Assembly (NCBI RefSeq): GCF_017982655.1
Contig: NZ_JABXYX010000049.1
Location: 1 to 53,467 of the forward strand
Reading direction: 5' to 3'
Origin: Brasilonema sp. CT11
GTDB taxonomy: Bacteria > Cyanobacteriota > Cyanobacteriia > Cyanobacteriales > Nostocaceae
DNA length: 53,467 nt
The position numbers and the translations under genes are program-made. The first letter of the stretch is position 1, and each line of letters begins with the position of its first letter. Shown here piece after piece: positions 4,043 to 51,320 of the stretch. The notes under the pieces were generated by a model that searched no databases, was not told the DNA's origin, and saw only the letters and a list, made by a program, of their open reading frames with translations.

Positions 4043-7000
4043 TCAATGTTTACTTTCTGATTTAAAAATCTTCTGCCTTACAGTATCAGGAAGTGTTAGC
4101 TCCTCTTGAGAAGAGATTTGAACTCGGTGCCGTTCCCGAGAAATTTTTGTGATTTTGGGTGTGTCAATTTCAGCACCTCTAGTCACCTTCATTTTCTCAA
4201 TAGCCACGGTTAATTCAGCAGGAGTTGGTGCTTCAAACAAAGTCCGTAGAGGCAGATTTACTTTGAGTGCCTCCTGTATGCGAGAAACAACTTGAGTAGC
4301 GAGTAGAGAATGCCCTCCAAGTTCAAAAAAGTTATCATCAACACCTAAGTGTTGGAGTTTAAGAACTTCTGCAAAGATATTGACAATCACTTCCTCAGTT
4401 GGGGTACGAGGTGGAACGTTGCTAGCACTCTTACCTACTTGCACAGATGGGGCAGGTAAAGCACGACGGTTCACTTTACCATTAGGAGTCAGAGGCAAAG
4501 CGTCTAACACAACAAAAATTGACGGCACCAGATACTCCGGCAACTGCTGTTTGAGAAAGTAGCGTAGGTCACCTTCTGCAAATGTCTGATTTAGTTTGGC
4601 AACTACATAGGCAACTAAGCGTTTATCCCCTAGAGTCTGTTCTATTGCAATCACCACACTTTCTGCCACCGCCGGGTGCTGATTTAATACCGTCTCAATC
4701 TCCCCAGGTTGAACACGTATTCCTCTAATCTTAATTTGGTCGTCCAACCGACCCAAAACTTCAACAGATCCATCCGGACGGTAGCGCCCCTTATCGCCAG
4801 TGTAGTAAAATAAATCCTGCTGGTCATTGCTCAAAGGATTGGGCACAAAGCGTTGCTGCTGTTCTTGCACAGCATTAATATAGCCTAAAGTGCGGAAGGG
4901 GGTGCGTATAATAATTTCCCCGATTTCACCAATTCCACACAATTGGTTAGTTAGGTTTAATACCAGCGCTTGCGTCTGGGGAAGCGCCCACCCTGCTGGC
5001 ATCACCCCAGATGGAATTTCACTAGGCACTCTGTAAAAGCATTTGACCATTGTAGTCTCTGTTGCCCCGTAGAGATTTACCACCTGTCCTGCTTCTGGAA
5101 AAGTTTGTCGCCATTGACGAACCAGCGTCCCAGTTAAAAGTTCTCCGGAGAAGAAAATCCAGCGCAACGAACGTAAATGAATTTCCTCAGGTACTTGTGT
5201 TAGCCAAGACTGTGCCAGTGCCGGGACTGTATGTACGACAGTGATTTGCTCAGTCTCCAACCAGTTCAAAACCCCATCGATCCCGAAGTCATTGTCTTGG
5301 TTTGGCAAACATAATGTCGCCCCACTTGTTAAAGGCAAAAACACATCTCTGAGGACAGCATCAAAAGTGAGACTGGTTAATTGGGCAACCCGGTCATTTG
5401 TACCAATCTCAAAAGTTTGGCGTTGCCAGTCAAGAAAATGAGAAATACCTTTGTGAGTCCCCAACACCCCTTTCGGTGTCCCTGTACTACCCGAGGTGAA
5501 GAAGATGTAAGCGCGATCGCCTGGAGTCAGGGTTGGTAAGGAAGTTATTCTAGAGGTGCCAGGGATTGGAGCAATTGCTGTTGCAGTCTCAGAATCAACA
5601 TGAATAATCTCTAACGAGTTTTCTGTCACCGAAGCTTGTTTTGACTGAGTGCCTACAACCAGGAGATACTTGGCTTGAGCCTGCTCGAGCATCAGTTGCT
5701 GGCGAGCAGTTGGTAGGTTGGAGTCCACCAGAAGCAACACAGCACCGCTTAAAAATACCCCCAGCATACTAGCAATAAGTCCGAAACTTCTCGAACCGCA
5801 CAAGGCGACTACATCTTTTGGTTGCACACCGCAACTTAAGAGAACCTCTGCAATAGTATGAGCGCTTTCGGACAATTCCTGATAACTCCACGTCCGACCG
5901 TTCTGGCGGATAGCTGTTTGCTGGGGTGCCTGCTGTGCCCAGTTAGCAAACAGAGCTGTTACTGGTTCGTAATCAGGTTCATCAAGAGGAGCACTTGGCT
6001 CAGGTAATAAGGAGCGCGACTGTGGCGTCACTAAAAAATAGGATTGAATCGAACGCTCAGGTTCTGCCACAATTTGTTGCAGTAAATGCTCAAACTGTTC
6101 TAGAAATGCAGTCATGCGTTCGGAAGAGAACAGGTTCTGCCGATACACCAGCTTGATGTTGAGTGACTCTGCTGCTTCTTGAACGAATACTGTCAAAAAG
6201 AATTTTGACTCCGGCTGTGTTAACTCCAACGGCTCAAAAGTCAAGCCAGGAATTTCCAGTGCGACCTCCGGCGTATTGATCATATTAAACATCACATCAA
6301 ACACCGGATGCCGACTCAATGAGCGTTCTGGTCGCAGTTCTTCTACCAACTTTTCAAAAGGAATGTCTTGATGGCTATAAGCTGCAAGAGTGATTTCGCG
6401 TACTTTTGTCAACAATTGCCGGAAGCTAGGATTTCCACCAAGGTAGGTGCGAAGGGGTAGAGTGTTCAGAAAAAAGCCAATTAGCTCTTCAGTTCCAAGG
6501 TGATTACGACCCGCAATCGGTGAACCGACAATGATATCTTCCTGTCCACTGTGGCGGGACAGTAATACTTTGAATGCTGCCAACAAGGTCATAAACACAG
6601 TGACTCCCTCTTGGCGGCTCAAAGTTTTCAATGCTGTGGTCAGAGAATTGGGCAAACGTAGAACTTGCTGTGCTCCTTGATAATTCTGAGTTGGTGAATG
6701 GGGGTAATCAATAGGTAGCTGGAGCACAGGTAAATTGCCACCAAGTTGCTGCTTCCAATAGTTCAGTTGCGTTTCTAACATTTCTCCCTGAAGCCATTGT
6801 CGCTGCCAGCAAGCGAAATCAGTATACTGGATTGGTAGGGCGGGCAACACACAAGGCTGTTGATGCAAGCTTACTTCATACAGAGCAACCAGTTCTCGAA
6901 TAAAAATGCTGATTGACCAAGCATCAAAAACTATGTGGTGCAATGTTACCAATAGCACGTGAGTTTGCTGTGCCAGTTGCAAGAGTTTAAAGCGTATCAC

Positions 7001-10000
7001 TGGACCGTTAGCAAGGTCAAAGGGTTGCTGGGCTTCTTCAGTTGCCAACTGCTGCACGCGATCTGCTTGCTCGTCTGGAGAAAGCGATTGCAAATCAAAA
7101 ACGGGAATGGTAACGACTTTAGTTGGGGCGATCGCCTGCACTGGAGTCCCGTTGACTATGGGAAAAGTGGTACGTAGAACCGAGTGGCGTTGTATAATTT
7201 CAGTCAAGGCAAGTTCTAGAGCTTCTGCATTTAGCTGTCCAGTCATTTGCAGCGCTGCGGGCATATTGTAAGCTGCACTCTCACTTTGCAACCCATCCAA
7301 AAACCACAGCCGTTCTTGCGCCCAAGATAAGGGCAAGTGTTCACTATCCCTTGCGACTGGTTTAATCTCAGGAATGACCAATCTTGAGTCAGTCATCAGT
7401 AGTGCCGCGATCACTCGCTCTAGTTCTGCAACAGTAGGCGATTCAAACAAAGTCCGCAGGGGGAGTTCTACTTGGAAAGTTTCCCGTAACCGAGAGACAA
7501 CTTGAGTAGCGAGTAGCGAGTGTCCTCCCAGTTCAAAGAAATTGCTGTAAACACCCACCTGTTCCAGCTTCAGAATCGCGGCAAAGATATCAGCAATTAT
7601 TTCTTCTGTCGGCGTGCGGGGCGGTATATATTCCTTTGAATTGCTAAGATCTAAGTCCAGCGTAGGTAGGGCACGGCGGTCAACCTTCTGATTGGGTGTT
7701 AGAGGCAGGGATTCTAGGAGAACAAATGCTGATGGGATCGCGTACTCTGGTAACTTTTGTTGTAGAAACTGCCGCAACTGCTCGGCTGTGACTGTATCTC
7801 CTTGTTTTGGAACCACATAGGCGACAAGTCGCTTTTCATTGGCTGCGTTTCCTTGCACTGTGACCACCGCTTGGCTCAGTTGTGGGTGTTTGTTTAACAC
7901 TGCCTCCACTTCACCCAATTCTATACGGAAGCCGCGAACCTTAACCTGGTCGTCTACCCGCCCAAGAAATTCAATGTTGCCATCCGGCAGATAACGTGCT
8001 ATGTCACCTGTTTGGTAGAGTTGCCCTTTACCAAAGGGATTAGAAACAAACTTCTGTGCTGTTAAATTCGGACGATTGAGATAACCCCGCGCCAGATTTG
8101 CCCCTCCAATGAATAAGAACCCTGGAACGCCAATGGGAACAGGTTGCCAATGCTGGTCTAGAATGTAAATCTGCGTGTTCGCTATGGGTTTACCAATTGG
8201 AGGATAAACGGGCCAAGTATCTGGTGAGGAGTTGAATGTAAAGGAAGTCACTACGTGAGTCTCTGAGGGACCGTAATGATTATGCAACTGGCAGTGGTTT
8301 AGCTGCTTGAACAAATCAATGATGGGCTGGGTAATTTGCAACTGCTCACCTGTCGTCACCACCTCGGTTAGATGACGGAACAAATGAGCTTGTTGCCCAT
8401 AGACTTGGGCTATTTGCTGCCAAAGGGCTACTGGCAAAATGACTTTCTGTACCGGTTTCTCAGCTAAGAAATGAACGAGTTTTTCCACATCCAACCGTAG
8501 GGCTTCTGAAATCATGTATAATGTACTGCCAGAACACCAGGCAGCAAACATTTCGTGGAAGCTGGCGTCGAAGCTCAGGGAGGCAAATTGCAGAACTCCA
8601 ACCCCGTGCTCCATAGTTTCCAAGTGCCAGTGAATCAAGTTGCCCAGAGCTTGGTGAGATAGTGTGATGCCCTTGGGTTGCCCAGTCGAGCCGGAGGTGT
8701 AGATGACGTAGAGAAGATTGCTTAGCCCGACGGGGCTTTTTGGATTGGTGGAGGGCTGTTGCGCGATAATTTCTGATTGTTGATCTAGACAGACAACATC
8801 AGCAACTGACTCCGGAAAGAGCGATCGCAACTTTTGTTGAGTCAGTAGCACTTTTGAGCGGGTATCCTCCAGCATGAAAGCTAAGCGTTGTTGAGGATAA
8901 GCCGGATCGAGTGGCACATAGGCTCCACCAGCTTTGAGGATTGCTAAGACGGAGATCGCCATCTCTAGGGAGCGTTCAACCGAAAGACCGACGAACACTT
9001 CAGGTTCCACCCCCAAAGATTGCAGATAATGGGCTAACTGATTGGCTCGCTCATTCAACTGCTGGTATGTCAACTGCTCATTGCCAAACTCCACGGCAAC
9101 TGCACTAGGAGTCAGCTCGACCTGCTCCTCAAACAACTGATGGATGCATTTATCCTGCGAGTAGTCGGCTGCTGTCTGATTCCACTCTACCAACAACTGA
9201 TGCCGCTCATCTTCTGTTAGCAACGGTAATTGACTAACAGGCAGTTCTGGATTAGTGACAATCCCTTTTAACAGCGTTTGGAAATGCCCTACCATGCGAG
9301 CGATCATTTCTTTGTTGAATAGGTCGGTGTTATACTTAATTACCCCAATAATGGATGAGCTAGCCTCAGCCATCTCTAAGGACAAATCAAACTGACCTTC
9401 TTGATGGGATATGTCAAAAGGTGCTAGCTCAAGTCCTCCACAATCTACTAAGGTTTTCGTTTCCCTGAAAGGTAGTTTTTGTCCTTCTTGAGATCTCTGT
9501 ACGAGTAAATTAAAGGAAACCTGAAAGATTGGCGATCGACTTGGATCGCGCTGTGGTTGCAACTGCTCCACAAGCAACGCAAAGGGATAGTCTTGATGTG
9601 CCAGTGCTTCCAAAACAGTTTGACGGACTTGGGCAAGGAAGACTTTAAAGCTGGGATTTCCTGAAAGATTTGCCCGTATGACGACTGGGTTAACAAAGTA
9701 GCCCACGATGGAGGCAAACTCAGGCTTAGTTCTTCCCAATGTTGGAGAACCGACCAGAATATCTTCCTGAGCAGTATAACGATACAGCAGTACCTGAAAG
9801 GCGGCTAGGAGCATCATGTAGAGGGTTGCTCCCTCAGACTGAGCCAATTTTTTTAGTCGTTCAGTAAGCTTTTCTGATAATTGAAAAGGGTGAGAAGCCC
9901 CATTATAAGTCTGTATTGGCGGCCTCAGTTTGTCTGTGGGCAAATTTAGGATAGGCAAGTCACCAGAGAGTTTTTGCTGCCAGTAAGACCAAAGCTGTTC

Positions 10001-10732
10001 TCCTTTTGCCACTGCCAACATTTCTTGCTGCCAACGAACGTAATCGCAGTAAGAGTGCTTAAGAGGAGCTAGAGATGGCTGAACACCATTCTTAAGTGCT
10101 GGATATAGCCTTCGCAACTCTTCTAGCAGTATTCCAACAGACCAACCATCAAACACAATATGGTGTATGGTTAGCAACAGAATATGCTCTTGCTTAGAAC
10201 GAGTAAATAATCTCACTCTTATGATAGGTTCGCGCTTGAGGTCGAAGGGATGTCGGTGTTCCCTAAGAACCTTTTGATTAAGGTCTTCTTCGCACCAGGT
10301 GGAAGCATCTATCTGCTGGAAATCTACTTTCTGATTCTGATGAACTTGCGTCATCGGCTCTTTGCTACGCTTGGGAAACGTGCTACGCAAGACGGAGTGG
10401 CGCTGGATTAGGATCTCGAATGCCTTGTGCAAAATCGTAACATCTACTTGAGAATAGATACGGGCGGTAACGGCAAGGTTGTAAGCTACGCTATCTGGTG
10501 CTAATTGCCACAAAAACCAAAGTGCTTTTTGACCGTAGGAGAGGGGATAGACACTAAAAATGTCTGGGCGATCGCGCAGCAGCTGTAAGATTTCAGTTTT
10601 GTGTTGCTTTAGTTGGTTTAATACAGAGGATGTTGCTTCTTCCTTAGGCGCATCGTAGCAAAGCCGTTCGCCGTCACTCCAAAGTTGCCAGCCTTCTATT
10701 ATAATATCTTGTAAAAACTCTACTGTATTCAT
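4043..10732 (-). CDS. Two-module NRPS (docking-C-A-PCP-C-A-PCP)
   Basis: Domain order by motif: TubC-type N-terminal docking domain (about 1-55), C (HHIVFDGWS), A (YTSGSTGQPKG), PCP (FFELGGHSLL), C (HHIVFDAWS), A (FTSGSTGTPKG), PCP (FFELGGHSLL), and a short tail without thioesterase. By eye against PheA the first A-domain code reads D-A-H-I-V-T-H-V-V-K; I do not assign it, although its last four positions resemble proline codes. The second reads D-A-R-H-F-S-L-M-V-K, which shares H, F, S and L with serine codes. The start ATG overlaps the stop of the upstream PKS gene (ATGA), so the two are translationally coupled. This fits a role in accepting the polyketide-extended acyl chain. Confidence 0.93.
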   Translation of the reverse strand: MNTVEFLQDIIIEGWQLWSDGERLCYDAPKEEATSSVLNQLKQHKTEILQLLRDRPDIFSVYPLSYGQKALWFLWQLAPDSVAYNLAVTARIYSQVDVTILHKAFEILIQRHSVLRSTFPKRSKEPMTQVHQNQKVDFQQIDASTWCEEDLNQKVLREHRHPFDLKREPIIRVRLFTRSKQEHILLLTIHHIVFDGWSVGILLEELRRLYPALKNGVQPSLAPLKHSYCDYVRWQQEMLAVAKGEQLWSYWQQKLSGDLPILNLPTDKLRPPIQTYNGASHPFQLSEKLTERLKKLAQSEGATLYMMLLAAFQVLLYRYTAQEDILVGSPTLGRTKPEFASIVGYFVNPVVIRANLSGNPSFKVFLAQVRQTVLEALAHQDYPFALLVEQLQPQRDPSRSPIFQVSFNLLVQRSQEGQKLPFRETKTLVDCGGLELAPFDISHQEGQFDLSLEMAEASSSIIGVIKYNTDLFNKEMIARMVGHFQTLLKGIVTNPELPVSQLPLLTEDERHQLLVEWNQTAADYSQDKCIHQLFEEQVELTPSAVAVEFGNEQLTYQQLNERANQLAHYLQSLGVEPEVFVGLSVERSLEMAISVLAILKAGGAYVPLDPAYPQQRLAFMLEDTRSKVLLTQQKLRSLFPESVADVVCLDQQSEIIAQQPSTNPKSPVGLSNLLYVIYTSGSTGQPKGITLSHQALGNLIHWHLETMEHGVGVLQFASLSFDASFHEMFAAWCSGSTLYMISEALRLDVEKLVHFLAEKPVQKVILPVALWQQIAQVYGQQAHLFRHLTEVVTTGEQLQITQPIIDLFKQLNHCQLHNHYGPSETHVVTSFTFNSSPDTWPVYPPIGKPIANTQIYILDQHWQPVPIGVPGFLFIGGANLARGYLNRPNLTAQKFVSNPFGKGQLYQTGDIARYLPDGNIEFLGRVDDQVKVRGFRIELGEVEAVLNKHPQLSQAVVTVQGNAANEKRLVAYVVPKQGDTVTAEQLRQFLQQKLPEYAIPSAFVLLESLPLTPNQKVDRRALPTLDLDLSNSKEYIPPRTPTEEIIADIFAAILKLEQVGVYSNFFELGGHSLLATQVVSRLRETFQVELPLRTLFESPTVAELERVIAALLMTDSRLVIPEIKPVARDSEHLPLSWAQERLWFLDGLQSESAAYNMPAALQMTGQLNAEALELALTEIIQRHSVLRTTFPIVNGTPVQAIAPTKVVTIPVFDLQSLSPDEQADRVQQLATEEAQQPFDLANGPVIRFKLLQLAQQTHVLLVTLHHIVFDAWSISIFIRELVALYEVSLHQQPCVLPALPIQYTDFACWQRQWLQGEMLETQLNYWKQQLGGNLPVLQLPIDYPHSPTQNYQGAQQVLRLPNSLTTALKTLSRQEGVTVFMTLLAAFKVLLSRHSGQEDIIVGSPIAGRNHLGTEELIGFFLNTLPLRTYLGGNPSFRQLLTKVREITLAAYSHQDIPFEKLVEELRPERSLSRHPVFDVMFNMINTPEVALEIPGLTFEPLELTQPESKFFLTVFVQEAAESLNIKLVYRQNLFSSERMTAFLEQFEHLLQQIVAEPERSIQSYFLVTPQSRSLLPEPSAPLDEPDYEPVTALFANWAQQAPQQTAIRQNGRTWSYQELSESAHTIAEVLLSCGVQPKDVVALCGSRSFGLIASMLGVFLSGAVLLLVDSNLPTARQQLMLEQAQAKYLLVVGTQSKQASVTENSLEIIHVDSETATAIAPIPGTSRITSLPTLTPGDRAYIFFTSGSTGTPKGVLGTHKGISHFLDWQRQTFEIGTNDRVAQLTSLTFDAVLRDVFLPLTSGATLCLPNQDNDFGIDGVLNWLETEQITVVHTVPALAQSWLTQVPEEIHLRSLRWIFFSGELLTGTLVRQWRQTFPEAGQVVNLYGATETTMVKCFYRVPSEIPSGVMPAGWALPQTQALVLNLTNQLCGIGEIGEIIIRTPFRTLGYINAVQEQQQRFVPNPLSNDQQDLFYYTGDKGRYRPDGSVEVLGRLDDQIKIRGIRVQPGEIETVLNQHPAVAESVVIAIEQTLGDKRLVAYVVAKLNQTFAEGDLRYFLKQQLPEYLVPSIFVVLDALPLTPNGKVNRRALPAPSVQVGKSASNVPPRTPTEEVIVNIFAEVLKLQHLGVDDNFFELGGHSLLATQVVSRIQEALKVNLPLRTLFEAPTPAELTVAIEKMKVTRGAEIDTPKITKISRERHRVQISSQEELTLPDTVRQKIFKSESKH

Positions 10733-42969: not shown

Positions 42970-43015
42970 ATACAAAATAGTTGAAAATCTTTCATAACCG
43001 TTATTGACGAATAAA

Positions 43016-43042
43016 AACTAGTTATTTAATATAGAACTAGTT
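43016..43042. promoter_or_regulatory. Paired AACTAGTT boxes upstream of the protelomerase-like gene
   Basis: Two copies of the palindrome AACTAGTT (43016-43023 and 43035-43042), 19 bp apart, lie just before the gene; its strong Shine-Dalgarno sequence (GGAGGTGAGGAG) follows. The same box and close variants recur in the iteron-like region at 50.9-51.3 kb. This suggests a shared binding protein, possibly the adjacent gene product. Confidence 0.5.
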
Positions 43043-43061
43043 AAAAACAGGAGGTGAGGAG

Positions 43062-45122
43062 ATGAGCAAAGCATTACAGGAAAAGATAAATGAGTTGTTT
43101 GACGCAACTAAGGACTTACGCAATCTAGAGGAAATTAAGGTTCAGTGCGATCGCTTCAATGAATGGGTGAATACTAGCACCAATTACAGCCATGCCACAC
43201 TAGGGACTAAGTTGAGCGCCTATGGGTTTTATAAAAAGTTCAAGTCCATATCGCTAGAACAAGATAAGAATGCTGTGTCCATCGCCAAGCACAATGCAGA
43301 TGGCACGGTTAAGGGTTATGAGCTAAAGCACTACGCGACTGTTCTATGTGGCTTAGACAAAGAGCAGTGGAATGAGCGAAACCAAACAACAAGGGTTATC
43401 GACCGTTTGGAGAATAGCACCGAAATTGACCCAGACAGATATCTGGAAACCACAGGCAAACTATTAACCAGTGAAGACCCCCATGAGTTGGCTGTTGGCT
43501 TGATTGCTGCCACAGGTCGCCGTCCTCATGAGATTATTGCCCGTGCCAAGTTCACAGCAATTGCAGACAAGCCCTACCACGTCATGTTCACTGGACAGGG
43601 TAAAAAACGTGGTGAAACACCAGTATTTGAGATAGCGACGCTTTACCCTGCTGATTGCGTTATCAAATCTCTGGCTAGATTGCGGAAGGAACCAAGCACA
43701 ATCGCGCTGCTCAAAGAAGTTAAGGCTCAATTTTCAAAAAGTGAAACCAGGCAGAACGTAGAAATCGACAATCGGCGCGGACAGTCCCTACGTCGGGTAG
43801 TACGTGCTTTTTATGGCGATAAAGGTGATAACACTCCTGTGCTCGCATTCCGACATGGTGAGAGCCAACATAACAACAAAGCATTGCGAGCTGCTTATGC
43901 AGTACTGGCGACTGAGCGAGACTGCAAAGGTGGCTATGGCGCTAAGATTCTTCATGCATCCAGAATCCTTGGTCATTTCACGCCAGAAAAACAAGACGAT
44001 AGAGTACTAGGAAAATTAAGTACATCAGTAGGATACAGCGATTACTTTGTTACAAAGCCAGTGAGGTTTGCCGAAGTGGAAAATGAAAAAGTTGGTAACG
44101 TCAAAGCTTATGCATCAGATTTAGAAAAAATTAAGGAATTGCAAGAAGCTTGGAAACTGCCAACCCAAAGGGACGTAATGAGGCGATTGCTCATGGAAGC
44201 CCAGTACGTGCAAGCACTTGAGCGAGAGTTGGTAGAAGTTCGTGAGAAAACTGCCGAATTGCAGAAAAATTTGGCAATCTCAAAAAACGAGATGGATCAG
44301 TTGCGGTTGGAAAATCAAAAACTTAGGCAGGAGAAAGAAAAGATGTCACAGTTACACCAACAGTTGAAGGAGGAAAAAGAAGTTATGGATCAGCAATCAC
44401 AGGTTACGGATGTAGAGAATAACGGCGACAGTCGTATCGACAATCTGGAAATACAAATGGCTCAGATGATGGCAATGATGCAGCAGATAATTTCTTCTGG
44501 CAGTGCGGTAAAAGCAACGGTTGAGGAATCGCTAGCACCAGTCGCAGCACGTAAACAACCAACGCCTAAGCAAGAAATTGACTGGGAATCGATACCCAAT
44601 GACCAGCTAAAGGGGATGAAAGCAAATGGTGCTGTAGAAGAAAAAATTTATCGGGCGTTCCGTGCGATCGCACAATACAACGATTCAGCACCAAGCAATG
44701 ACGACCGCTGGTACATTGGGTCAACTACACTCAGTCAGGTTTCAGGCTGCAACCGGGGAACAATTGCGGATTGGATAAAAACTCACGAATTGACGGTGAA
44801 CGACCATAACAATAAATATGGACTGGGACAATACCACAACAAGCGCCACAAGAGAATTGAGATTACGGATTTAATTGGGTTGTGGGAAAAAGACGATTTT
44901 TCATCTAAAGTTCTTCCTGTTGATAACAAGTCTAAGAAAATTACCAGTCTTCCGGTATCGGCAACAACTCTAGATATTATCGATTACTTGGGTAGTCATC
45001 CTAATGAAAGTGTTCAAATTAAAAGTGATGGCAAAAAATTAACTTACGAGCGAGTCAATGATGAGAGAGGGCATATGAAAGCAGCTCGTATTGTTGAGAC
45101 AGGAGAAGAAATTTCAGCGTAG
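43062..45122 (+). CDS. Protelomerase-like (telomere resolvase) tyrosine recombinase
   Basis: A 686-residue protein whose central part (about 120-335) matches the catalytic layout of ResT/TelK-type hairpin telomere resolvases: Arg in AATGRRPHEI, Lys in GQGKKRG, second Arg in NKALRAAYA, His in RILGHF and a Tyr candidate in SVGYSDYF. These enzymes cut and rejoin palindromic sites to make closed hairpin DNA ends. Residues about 365-460 form a long coiled coil, and about 550-625 look like a DNA-binding helical domain (TLSQVSGCNRGTIADW). It is larger than phage protelomerases because of this C-terminal extension. Activity and target site are unknown; a copy-control or partition role is an alternative. 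Confidence 0.75.
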   Translation: MSKALQEKINELFDATKDLRNLEEIKVQCDRFNEWVNTSTNYSHATLGTKLSAYGFYKKFKSISLEQDKNAVSIAKHNADGTVKGYELKHYATVLCGLDKEQWNERNQTTRVIDRLENSTEIDPDRYLETTGKLLTSEDPHELAVGLIAATGRRPHEIIARAKFTAIADKPYHVMFTGQGKKRGETPVFEIATLYPADCVIKSLARLRKEPSTIALLKEVKAQFSKSETRQNVEIDNRRGQSLRRVVRAFYGDKGDNTPVLAFRHGESQHNNKALRAAYAVLATERDCKGGYGAKILHASRILGHFTPEKQDDRVLGKLSTSVGYSDYFVTKPVRFAEVENEKVGNVKAYASDLEKIKELQEAWKLPTQRDVMRRLLMEAQYVQALERELVEVREKTAELQKNLAISKNEMDQLRLENQKLRQEKEKMSQLHQQLKEEKEVMDQQSQVTDVENNGDSRIDNLEIQMAQMMAMMQQIISSGSAVKATVEESLAPVAARKQPTPKQEIDWESIPNDQLKGMKANGAVEEKIYRAFRAIAQYNDSAPSNDDRWYIGSTTLSQVSGCNRGTIADWIKTHELTVNDHNNKYGLGQYHNKRHKRIEITDLIGLWEKDDFSSKVLPVDNKSKKITSLPVSATTLDIIDYLGSHPNESVQIKSDGKKLTYERVNDERGHMKAARIVETGEEISA

Positions 45123-48657: not shown

Positions 48658-49215
48658 ATGCTTGACTATAAGAAAGCTCGGTTGAAATGGAAAAGTTACT
48701 GGTTTAAAACACTTGGCAGATGGCGTTCCTGTCCTTTAACCTGCTCGGTTGATCGCCCGCATCATCGGCACGTTTTCTGGAGCTGGTTTGGTAGTTTTTT
48801 TGCGATCACCGTAACCTCTTACCTTACCGTGAAAATGAACTCTCCGTTGCTGATGGCCCCGTTTGGTGCAACAAGCGTCTTGATCTTTGGTGTCCCTGAT
48901 AGTCCATTGGCTCAACCGCGTAATGTCATCGGTGGCAATCTTTTAGCGGCTCTCGTAAGTCTGATAATTCTGCATTTTCTTGGTTCTTCTCCCTTGTCAA
49001 TGGGATTGGCTGTTTCGACTGCGATCGCGGTCATGCAACTTACCGGAACGGTACATCCTCCATCGGGAGCCGTTGCATTAGTAGTCATGATGACTCAACC
49101 CAATTGGCAATTCCTGCTGACACCTGCCTTAGAAGGCTCGATGATTTTAGTACTGTGCGCTGTGATTTTCAATAACTTAGCTGAAGAAAGAACGTATCCA
49201 AAACATTGGCTGTAG
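48658..49215 (+). CDS. HPP family membrane protein (NrtS-like nitrite transporter candidate)
   Basis: 185 residues with about four hydrophobic segments and the name-giving motif TVHPPSGAVAL. HPP proteins are known in cyanobacteria as low-affinity nitrite transporters (NrtS), so a nitrite uptake role in the plasma membrane is the best guess. The N-terminus is basic (KKARLKWKSYW) and the protein has the usual family length. It stands alone, with no nitrate or nitrite genes nearby. The ATG directly follows a TAG, and no strong Shine-Dalgarno sequence is seen. Confidence 0.85.
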   Translation: MLDYKKARLKWKSYWFKTLGRWRSCPLTCSVDRPHHRHVFWSWFGSFFAITVTSYLTVKMNSPLLMAPFGATSVLIFGVPDSPLAQPRNVIGGNLLAALVSLIILHFLGSSPLSMGLAVSTAIAVMQLTGTVHPPSGAVALVVMMTQPNWQFLLTPALEGSMILVLCAVIFNNLAEERTYPKHWL

Positions 49216-49703
49216 TCTTATCTTTTGTTCCATTACGTCATATCATAACTAGATTTAGCTGTCGTAACTGGTCGCTGACACTCCTCCTTCATACGATGCG
49301 GAAGCTGCCGCTTCCGGGCGATCGCTACTTAAAGATATTTTGTATTTCCACATACCTTCAAAAATCCGTATAGCACTTCAATTTAATAGTGGGGTAGGCG
49401 TCATTGGTGTATTTTTACTTACCCACCTTAATTCGTTGCTAATTCACCTGACTTATGCACCAGGTGAAACCACAGTTCCAATGCCAAGCAAATCCCGCTG
49501 CTTGTTTACTTATTGAGCGCAGACGCCCGGGCGTCTGCGCTCCGCGCGATCGCACAAATTAAAAATCCTAATGCGATATTTGGAAAAATTAGAGATTCAA
49601 AATTACCTGCCATTGTTCTCTACTTCTTCTCGATTGGACTCTAAATTGAAAGACATCAAGAGCAAAAGTTACGTCCAATCCACAAATATAAGCAGAACAT
49701 TTT
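49216..49703. other. Intergenic repeat cluster upstream of the graspetide precursor
   Basis: It contains a copy of the 51.5-kb repeat type (about 49317-49386, GCGATCGCTACTT start), a copy of block 2 (49390-49505), and a perfect 28-bp palindrome at 49515-49542 (arm GAGCGCAGACGCCC). The last 140 bp before the precursor gene are AT-rich and probably carry its promoter; no convincing -10/-35 pair was identified. Confidence 0.6.
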
Positions 49704-49892
49704 ATGTCTGAAAACAAACCAAAAGAACTAAATTCACAAGTCATACCGTTTTTTACACGATTTTTAGAAAAGCAAAACTCTGAAGAGTTATCCGAGCAAG
49801 AATTAAAAGCGATTAACGGTGGAGCTTCTACAAGAACACTCAAATACCCTTCTGACAGTGATGAGCTTCATACTAACAACCCAAGTTATTAA
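49704..49892 (+). CDS. Microviridin-type graspetide precursor peptide
   Basis: 62 residues. The leader contains PFFTRFLE, matching the PFFxRFL helix that recruits microviridin ATP-grasp ligases, and then LSEQELKAINGG, a double-glycine cleavage motif. The core has TLKYPSDSDE: Thr, Lys, Ser, Asp, Asp and Glu occupy the six positions that form two ester and one amide ring in microviridins (TxKYPSDxxx). A tail of eight residues (LHTNNPSY) follows. Microviridins are tricyclic protease inhibitors. No ATP-grasp ligase, acetyltransferase or transporter is present in the window; the next gene encodes a C39-like peptidase 11 bp downstream. Confidence 0.88.
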   Translation: MSENKPKELNSQVIPFFTRFLEKQNSEELSEQELKAINGGASTRTLKYPSDSDELHTNNPSY

Positions 49893-49903
49893 GCATCTGA
49901 AAT

Positions 49904-50656
49904 TTGAGAATCCGCGCTTCTGAAAAATATCAAATCATTCAATCGGCATTCAAAAGGAGAAAAGTTATACAAAAAAAGGTGAACTTTCTACCAGCACGTG
50001 ATGGTTATCACTTTGCTAATGAATTTGTAAATCAAGTGGTCGCTGTTTCATTCATTAAGTTTCAAACCAAAGGATTATGTGGTGGAATGGTTATGACTGC
50101 TCTTGATTATTGGCGATCTAAAGTTCCAATTCCTACCTATACTAGTTCTGACTTTGGGGCGCAAAGAGTACCTGGAGGAAAATTGTATGAATACATCTTG
50201 GAACGTCAGATACACAGTTTGACAACTAAGGCAATGGCTACTCGTTGGATTGTCGCACCTTGGAATAATTTTCCTGAAAGATTTCATGACTGGGCAACTA
50301 AGGATGAGTTTGAGGTCATCAAACAGCAAATTAACATGGGTAGACCCGCAATGTTGGGACTATGGTCTATGAAATCTGGTGATGTTCTAGGAGGACATCA
50401 AGTGCTTTGCTACGGCTATGATACAAATCCAAGTCCGAGGTTGTTTATTTACGATCCCAACCATCCTAATCAAGAAGTTGTGCTGATTCCAGACTCTCCT
50501 GCAAAAGGATGCATTTTAGAAATTGGTGGGATACCCATTATCAGAAAAGACGGTACGAATGAAGCATATCGTGGCTACTTTTTCACTGATGTTTATAACT
50601 GGGATGAAAACCCACCTTACCAACCTAAATATAAACAATTGGCAATGATCATCTAG
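49904..50656 (+). CDS. C39-like/papain-like cysteine peptidase, partner of the precursor
   Basis: About 250 residues with the order of a papain-like peptidase: Cys in TKGLCGGMVMTALDYW, His in GGHQVLCYGYD and an Asp/Asn in FIYDPNHPNQ. There are no membrane segments and no ABC transporter domain. The start is uncertain: a TTG at 49904 gives the longest form, and a GTG near 49979 or a non-standard codon after AGGAGA near 49951 are alternatives. An in-frame stop lies at 49898-49900. It follows the graspetide precursor by 11 bp and ends at a strong terminator, so the two form a closed unit. A leader-cleaving role at the GG site is inferred. Confidence 0.75.
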   Translation: MRIRASEKYQIIQSAFKRRKVIQKKVNFLPARDGYHFANEFVNQVVAVSFIKFQTKGLCGGMVMTALDYWRSKVPIPTYTSSDFGAQRVPGGKLYEYILERQIHSLTTKAMATRWIVAPWNNFPERFHDWATKDEFEVIKQQINMGRPAMLGLWSMKSGDVLGGHQVLCYGYDTNPSPRLFIYDPNHPNQEVVLIPDSPAKGCILEIGGIPIIRKDGTNEAYRGYFFTDVYNWDENPPYQPKYKQLAMII

Positions 50657-50667
50657 GTAGTGGAAAA

Positions 50668-50706
50668 GGGAAGAGGTGAGCGTTGCTCGCCTCTTCCCCC
50701 TTGTCT
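50668..50706 (+). terminator. Rho-independent-type terminator of the graspetide unit
   Basis: GGGAAGAGGTGAGC (50668-50681) pairs with GCTCGCCTCTTCCC (50685-50698) around a 3-base loop, with one wobble pair, and is followed by a short T-containing run. It lies 12 bases after the peptidase stop. Confidence 0.75.
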
Positions 50707-50927
50707 AATGATCATTGTATGGCTGACGCCACGCTCCGCTATCGCAGTGTAAACGCCCAACCGACCGTCAGGCGTCGCCATCGGAACTAATAAGAATAAG
50801 TTTGGCGATCAGCCTGCAATTTTTTCTTATCCACTCTTAATATCCGCTGAAACCTTTCTTTTTCAATGCTAAAATACTTATTTTAATATAATGAGAAGTT
50901 TTTAACTGGTAATCATTTTACCGGACA

Positions 50928-51320
50928 AACTAGTTATAATAATATCTCGTTATCTCGTGATGCATACATTAACTTGTTATGAATTATCGTAACTAGTCTT
51001 ATTATCTCGTGATGTCTGCATTAACTCGTTATGATATTTAGATAACTACTTATTGCTGAAATGAGTCATCCCGTTACTATCTTTGTACAACTTTTTATAT
51101 CTAGTTATGATAAAATCGTTATCTTTCCTATCTAGTTATGATAACGTGATGAGTTCTTGATATCTGGTTACATCTTTTCGTAACTAGTTGTCTTTCCTTG
51201 ACGAGCTATTTGTTAGTAGCAGCACGCGCGTACCCATAACGATCCCATAACGATAGCGCTGACAGTGCATGTAGCAATCTCGTCTAACTCATCCGGTTAG
51301 CATTTTTGCATAACTAGTTG
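50928..51320. repeat. Iteron-like region with AACTAGTT and TATCTCGTGATG repeats
   Basis: AACTAGTT or close forms (TAACTAGTC, ATCTAGTTATGATAA, TAACTCGTTATGATA) recur at about 50928, 50990, 51019, 51100, 51131, 51181 and 51311. A longer direct repeat, TATCTCGTGATG followed by CATTAACT and GTTATGA, occurs at about 50950 and 51003. AT-rich DNA with such direct repeats and no coding potential is typical of plasmid origins or partition sites. The AACTAGTT box also precedes the protelomerase-like gene. Confidence 0.6.

Follow-up and report, generated by a model that had tools for sequence, protein, structure and literature searches.

The window analysed here, a 53,467-base stretch of Brasilonema sp. 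CT11 (the whole of contig NZ_JABXYX010000049.1), carries a gene for a single-core microviridin-type precursor, followed on the same strand by a gene for a predicted papain-like cysteine peptidase. We read the pair as a split graspetide unit and its contig as plasmid-like; ligases encoded elsewhere in the genome would act in trans, and the neighbouring peptidase would cut the leader at a double glycine (GG). This reading is unproven, and we give it a probability of about 0.4. Three of its elements are shown: the precursor keeps its motifs, the genome encodes the ligases and the predicted catalytic residues of the peptidase are conserved. How the leader is removed is poorly defined in graspetide biosynthesis, and the peptidase partner, not the lone precursor, is the interesting part of the unit.

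The precursor and the neighbouring peptidase

The precursor, a 62-amino-acid (aa) open reading frame (ORF), scored above the cut-offs of both PF12559 (E 3.1e-15; 56.6 bits against 21) and NCBIfam NF033738 (42.5 against 26 bits), confirming the microviridin type that a sequence-only reading had proposed. That reading had also claimed that every ring-forming position of the core, the leader helix and the double glycine are kept, and all could be read in the ORF: the ligase-binding helix PFFTRFLE is intact at residues 15–22, the double glycine is Gly39-Gly40 and the single core, TLKYPSDSDE, spans residues 45–54. Both the TxKYPSDxxE core pattern and a PFFARFL-type leader helix are thus present; such helices recruit and activate ATP-grasp ligases, according to the available parts of PMC8939145 and PMC13039773. 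Hydrophobic residues occupy leader positions −4, −7 and −12 before the predicted cut, the three positions read by C39 peptidases under the rule given in the accessible text of PMC10885120. The ribosome-binding site of the precursor is weak, and a scan of the upstream 49146–49704 returned no sigma-70-like promoter on the plus strand. A search of the Brasilonema genome for a second copy of the precursor–peptidase unit returned the unit itself alone.

The leader resembles those of double-glycine precursors in relatives, for example MSENKPEELNSQAVPFFARFLEGQ...GG, but there is one core here as against several there. Class II microviridin precursors may hold up to five cores (PMC13039773, as far as its text is available); of the class II features, the double glycine before the core was found and several cores on one precursor were not. 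Among the 14 rows compared, two of which came from one and the same locus, the nearest precursor was that on contig C17 of genome G002 (34/57 identical). Of class II precursors with a C39 transporter, the one on the Nostoc sp. UHCC 0870 plasmid NZ_CP091915.1 has a similar leader, a double glycine and a core of the same pattern, and is 54.5% identical over 55 aa. The window differs from it in having one core rather than several and no adjoining ligase, C39 transporter or HlyD, with a soluble papain-like peptidase instead.

The second ORF is intact and cysteine-peptidase-like, with 250 aa counted from a TTG codon. No family model matched it over a curated cut-off (PF13529, E 0.05, 14.6 against 24 bits; NF045837, E 0.004, 17.1 against 45 bits), and sequence searches of solved structures gave nothing up to E 1 in one case and 27 matches, the best at E 0.24, in the other. 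The predicted catalytic Cys, His and Asp stand in order and are invariant in 10 out of 10 aligned rows, as is an Asn two residues past the Asp; three loci that a Cys motif search did not pick up (L024, L109 and L110) were excluded from this alignment. Conservation of the Cys and His had been set beforehand as a test, and the order Cys, His, Asp-Asn is that of clan CA. The protein is a predicted soluble cysteine peptidase, for which a low-confidence structural model looks papain-like. Of the earlier label, papain/C39-like, the C39 part holds at most at fold level. Membership of C39 by sequence was rejected: PF13529 fell below its cut-off, PF03412 was not among the matches to E 1, and hhalign against nine C39 domains gave 0.6%. 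The protein likewise has no M1 family match and no HExxH motif, which sets it apart from NosP-type M1 proteases.

An 11-bp gap between the two genes had been claimed, but this depends on the TTG at 49904, which has no visible ribosome-binding site. An AGGAG suits the in-frame ATA at 49967, 7 nt on, and less well the GTG at 49979, 19 nt on; homology to relatives also starts at about these codons. The peptidase start is likely one of the two, the codon itself being uncertain, which would put the gap at 74 or 86 nt. The ATA at 49967–49969, ideally spaced from the AGGAG, could be an unusual start codon, a mutation or a sequencing error. The supposed strong terminator closing the unit proved to be a strong hairpin (−29.7 kcal/mol for a 67-nt stretch, with none of 200 shuffles as good) that has no T-run and was not among the results of a terminator scan.

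Table 1. Coordinates of the precursor–peptidase unit within the window
Feature	Position	Strand	Basis
Microviridin-type precursor gene, 62 aa, single core	49704..49892	+	PF12559, NF033738
Leader helix PFFTRFLE, predicted to recruit and activate ligases	49746..49769	+	Sequence; role from available parts of PMC8939145, PMC13039773
Double glycine, predicted cut after Gly40; I −4, L −7, L −12	49818..49823	+	Sequence; rule from accessible text of PMC10885120
Core TLKYPSDSDE, all ring-forming positions	49836..49865	+	Pattern as in relatives' precursor cores
Papain-like cysteine peptidase ORF (predicted), listed from TTG; likely start ATA 49967 or GTG 49979	49904..50656	+	
AGGAG ribosome-binding site of peptidase gene	49955..49959	+	Sequence
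Predicted catalytic Cys (GLCGGM)	50078..50080	+	Invariant in 10/10 aligned rows
Predicted catalytic His (HQV)	50396..50398	+	Invariant in 10/10 aligned rows
DPN of YDPN motif: predicted catalytic Asp, Asn two residues on	50453..50461	+	Both invariant in 10/10 rows
14-bp hairpin closing the unit, no T-run	50668..50698	+	−29.7 kcal/mol, z −5.5

Ligases in the genome and lone precursors in relatives

The pair had been described as lacking an ATP-grasp ligase, which holds for the contig but not for the genome; ligases in the precursor's own cluster are typical of this family, yet membership does not require them. There is no MvdD-type ligase on the contig, and all five matches of the genome search lie on contigs C78, C211 and C131. 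The proposed check for ligases of the MdnB/MdnC type thus found them. C78 carries an intact pair, MvdD (563 bits; cut-off 475) and MvdC (533.1 bits; cut-off 425), with an adjoining ABC transporter, and C211 carries a second intact MvdD (544.7 bits) beside an MvdC broken into pieces (G000:C211:79937-80266). An in-frame stop interrupts one of the two precursors on C78 (L015 12300-12437). A genome without ligases was accordingly rejected. Because MvdC and MvdD are encoded in the genome, modification in trans is possible, and the ligases likely act in this way on the precursor of the window.

We then considered how often precursors stand apart from ligases, using the 106 listed rows that scored at least 38.9 bits in a search of 217 genomes, with lower-scoring matches excluded. 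Twenty-one of the 106 were distant from MvdD, meaning more than 10 kb from any MvdD above the cut-off or on another contig, and some of these are cases of contig ends or broken genes. For the 20 other than the window's, we inspected about 8 kb on either side, contig permitting: 12 had no MvdC or MvdD in that stretch and eight had one or a piece of one, so that with the window 13 out of 21 had no ligase in the stretch examined. The idea that a lone precursor is unusual in itself was rejected on these counts. Two of the 12 ligase-less precursors (in G003 and G002) lie among genes for a C39 transporter and HlyD, and in G003, a single contig, MvdD lies 612 kb from the precursor. Because split precursor units also occur in G002 and G003, a split system with ligases in trans, as proposed from the sequence, is plausible and not unusual. 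Such units also mean that precursors are missed if mining covers ligase clusters alone.

At L086 (G003:C1) 5361-10161 and at L091 (G002:C17) 5538-10094, the precursor is multi-core and has a C39 transporter and HlyD at its flanks, with no ligases in the stretch inspected. Lone double-glycine precursors share neighbours across genomes in two pairs (G096/G097 and G136/G152; loci L087/L101 and L098/L103), and short C39-transporter remnants adjoin the lone precursors at L098/L103.

The peptidase family and a parallel locus

The peptidase family is rare. A single-sequence search of the taxonomic family (217 genomes) found it in three, and profile searches in 6 out of 388 genomes of the order (two weak), 5 out of 386 of the phylum (four weak) and 5 out of 343 of the class (two weak). 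These profile counts each include the Brasilonema genome, come from overlapping samples from which G002 and G060 are absent, and may miss members, as at most seven or eight candidates were scored per genome. Weak profile matches in G435, G495, G547, G536 and G741 were inspected and set aside as other proteins; those in G563, G1005 and G1011 were not among the ones inspected.

One locus parallels the window. In G002, the gene order is a GG peptide (74 aa), a peptidase of the window's family (547 aa), a 245-aa gene and an ATP-grasp maturase (TIGR04187, E 9.2e-42; 143.3 bits, under the model's cut-off of 350). The peptidase gene has a good ribosome-binding site and is overlapped by 4 bases by the 245-aa gene, and the ATP-grasp gene also overlaps. 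By analogy, this run supports a peptide-maturation role for the peptidase family. It occupies 8587-12568 of L020 (G002:C91:23000-42000), and its peptide ends in FPPGPY/YPPGPY repeats, not a microviridin core; a relative of the peptide in G018 has no peptidase or ligase nearby. In gene content (ATP-grasp, shorter partner gene, peptidase), the locus resembles the ATP-grasp branch 8 loci, in which, according to the available text of Makarova et al. (PMC8939145), a truncated ATP-grasp accompanies a peptidase, whereas the window differs from the branch 7/8 loci described there in having no ATP-grasp. A clade of the window and G002 peptidases was neither supported nor rejected in an 11-row tree (approximately unbiased test, p 0.263), and therefore one or two recruitments of the peptidase are both possible. 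We suggest, as a possibility we hold with some doubt, that an undescribed family of soluble papain-like peptidases may be dedicated to cutting graspetide leaders at the double glycine, with no coupling to transport. Two members of a single cyanobacterial family would have recruited it, one (the window) next to a one-core precursor that lacks ligases and the other (G002) within an ATP-grasp run.

The sequence-only reading had called the leader-removing protease not well defined. That is fair, although the accessible part of PMC13039773 records C39 transporter peptidases that act on GG precursors and, for class I microviridins, the protease NosP. NosP, presented in that 2026 paper as the first confirmed specific protease of microviridins, is likewise a microviridin leader peptidase not encoded with the ligases. 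It is an M1 zinc metalloprotease tied to a LEEQ/LAEQ motif, whereas the window's ORF is a predicted cysteine peptidase beside a GG precursor. PoyH, the papain-like (C1A) polytheonamide leader peptidase, is also a peptidase without a transporter domain that acts on a ribosomally synthesized and post-translationally modified peptide (RiPP); it serves a different RiPP class, and its likeness to the window's peptidase is by description in the available parts of PMC10885120. In the literature on microviridin leader proteases, orphan precursors, double-glycine and C39 systems, in-trans modification and graspetide cysteine proteases, with most subscription papers outside its scope, none of the titles listed described the precursor–peptidase pair.

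Who cuts the leader, and the replicon

In the mechanism we propose, the precursor would be made from the plasmid-like contig and its PFFTRFLE helix would bind MvdD and MvdC encoded elsewhere (the C78 pair and the second MvdD on C211). The ligases would then form the rings of TLKYPSDSDE through two ester bonds and one amide bond, the papain-like neighbour, presumably cytosolic, would cut after Gly39-Gly40, and a transporter encoded elsewhere would export a tricyclic product that may act as a serine-protease inhibitor. If this is true, it would explain how a lone precursor can mature without a transporter peptidase of its own, and a small soluble peptidase cutting after GG would be a handy tool.

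Cleavage by the neighbour is the best single reading, at somewhat below even odds, and what favours it is the adjacency, the fold and the one parallel locus in G002. We inspected 18 peptidase-family loci (the window with 15 others, and then two more; L111 and L112 encode the same protein). None of the 17 loci other than the window had a microviridin precursor beside the peptidase, so the conservation of the pair in relatives that had been looked for was not found. A pattern search of ORFs of 35–130 aa within 2.5–3 kb gave an accepted GG-leader peptide at the window and G002 alone, leaving 16 of the 18 loci without an accepted RiPP neighbour. Three further pattern matches were set aside, two in L037 (on the opposite strand of a 1526-aa ORF) and one in L119, where the GG closes a 112-aa ORF. 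Elsewhere, several family members have signal-like N-termini or occur as fusions with further domains, and in our reading show no RiPP signs. No pair was found on plasmids (four distant peptidase relatives, two precursor relatives), among genome contigs (two relatives, neither adjoined by a precursor) or on viral contigs (four relatives).

The Brasilonema genome also encodes at least nine C39 peptidases that could cut the leader, which itself bears the C39 signature: nine of 14 C39 matches are strong domains with invariant Cys, His and Asp, and one lies 16 kb from the C211 microviridin cluster. Other GG precursors adjoin C39 transporters (L086, L091, L094 and L021). The precursor might be modified in trans and lose its leader to a C39 peptidase encoded at another locus, for instance a peptidase-transporter, with a neighbour that has an unrelated job and lies there by chance. 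We consider this somewhat unlikely, since any given gene would rarely come to lie next to a precursor by chance (an estimated ~4 precursors per ~7,500 genes) and a second family member sits in the graspetide-type gene run of G002. Decay is a less probable account still. It would make the unit what is left of a multi-core precursor in a plasmid copy, after loss of the cluster, of the precursor's ribosome-binding site and of the start codon of the partner gene, in keeping with one core where the double-glycine precursors compared have two or more, the weak precursor ribosome-binding site and the ATA where ATG is expected. The C39-transporter remnants (42 and 35 aa) beside the stand-alone precursors of G136 and G152, the broken MvdC on C211 and the in-frame stop in a C78 precursor also favour this account, but both reading frames of the unit are intact and all ring-forming and catalytic positions are kept. 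Microviridins inhibit proteases, and proteases beside graspetide genes may serve maturation or resistance (PMC13097080, as far as its text is available), so the peptidase could instead be a self-protection factor, regulator or target linked to the inhibitor. This is very improbable in our view: the microviridin targets named in the accessible part of PMC13039773 are serine proteases, and the window encodes a predicted cysteine enzyme.

The contig is plasmid-like, with a ParA-like gene, a telomere resolvase, an integrase and a resolvase, and shows 84% DNA identity to 35.8-kb Trichormus plasmids over 1.3 kb, or 7% of the query. A mobile accessory precursor that depends on ligases from elsewhere would be in keeping with such a replicon.

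The telomere resolvase, of the ResT/TelK type (43062–45122; PF16684, E 3.8e-29), perhaps indicates a linear plasmid. Ten TAACTAGTTA-like sites were found against 2.0 expected, two of them just 5' of the telomere resolvase gene (43015–43043) and eight directly after the precursor–peptidase unit (50927–51320); these may be an iteron or telomere-related array. On the minus strand, 4043–34042 resembles a large biosynthetic cluster: its ORFs are very long (2229, 1181, 1757 and 4552 aa), and a racemase and an ABC transporter lie nearby.
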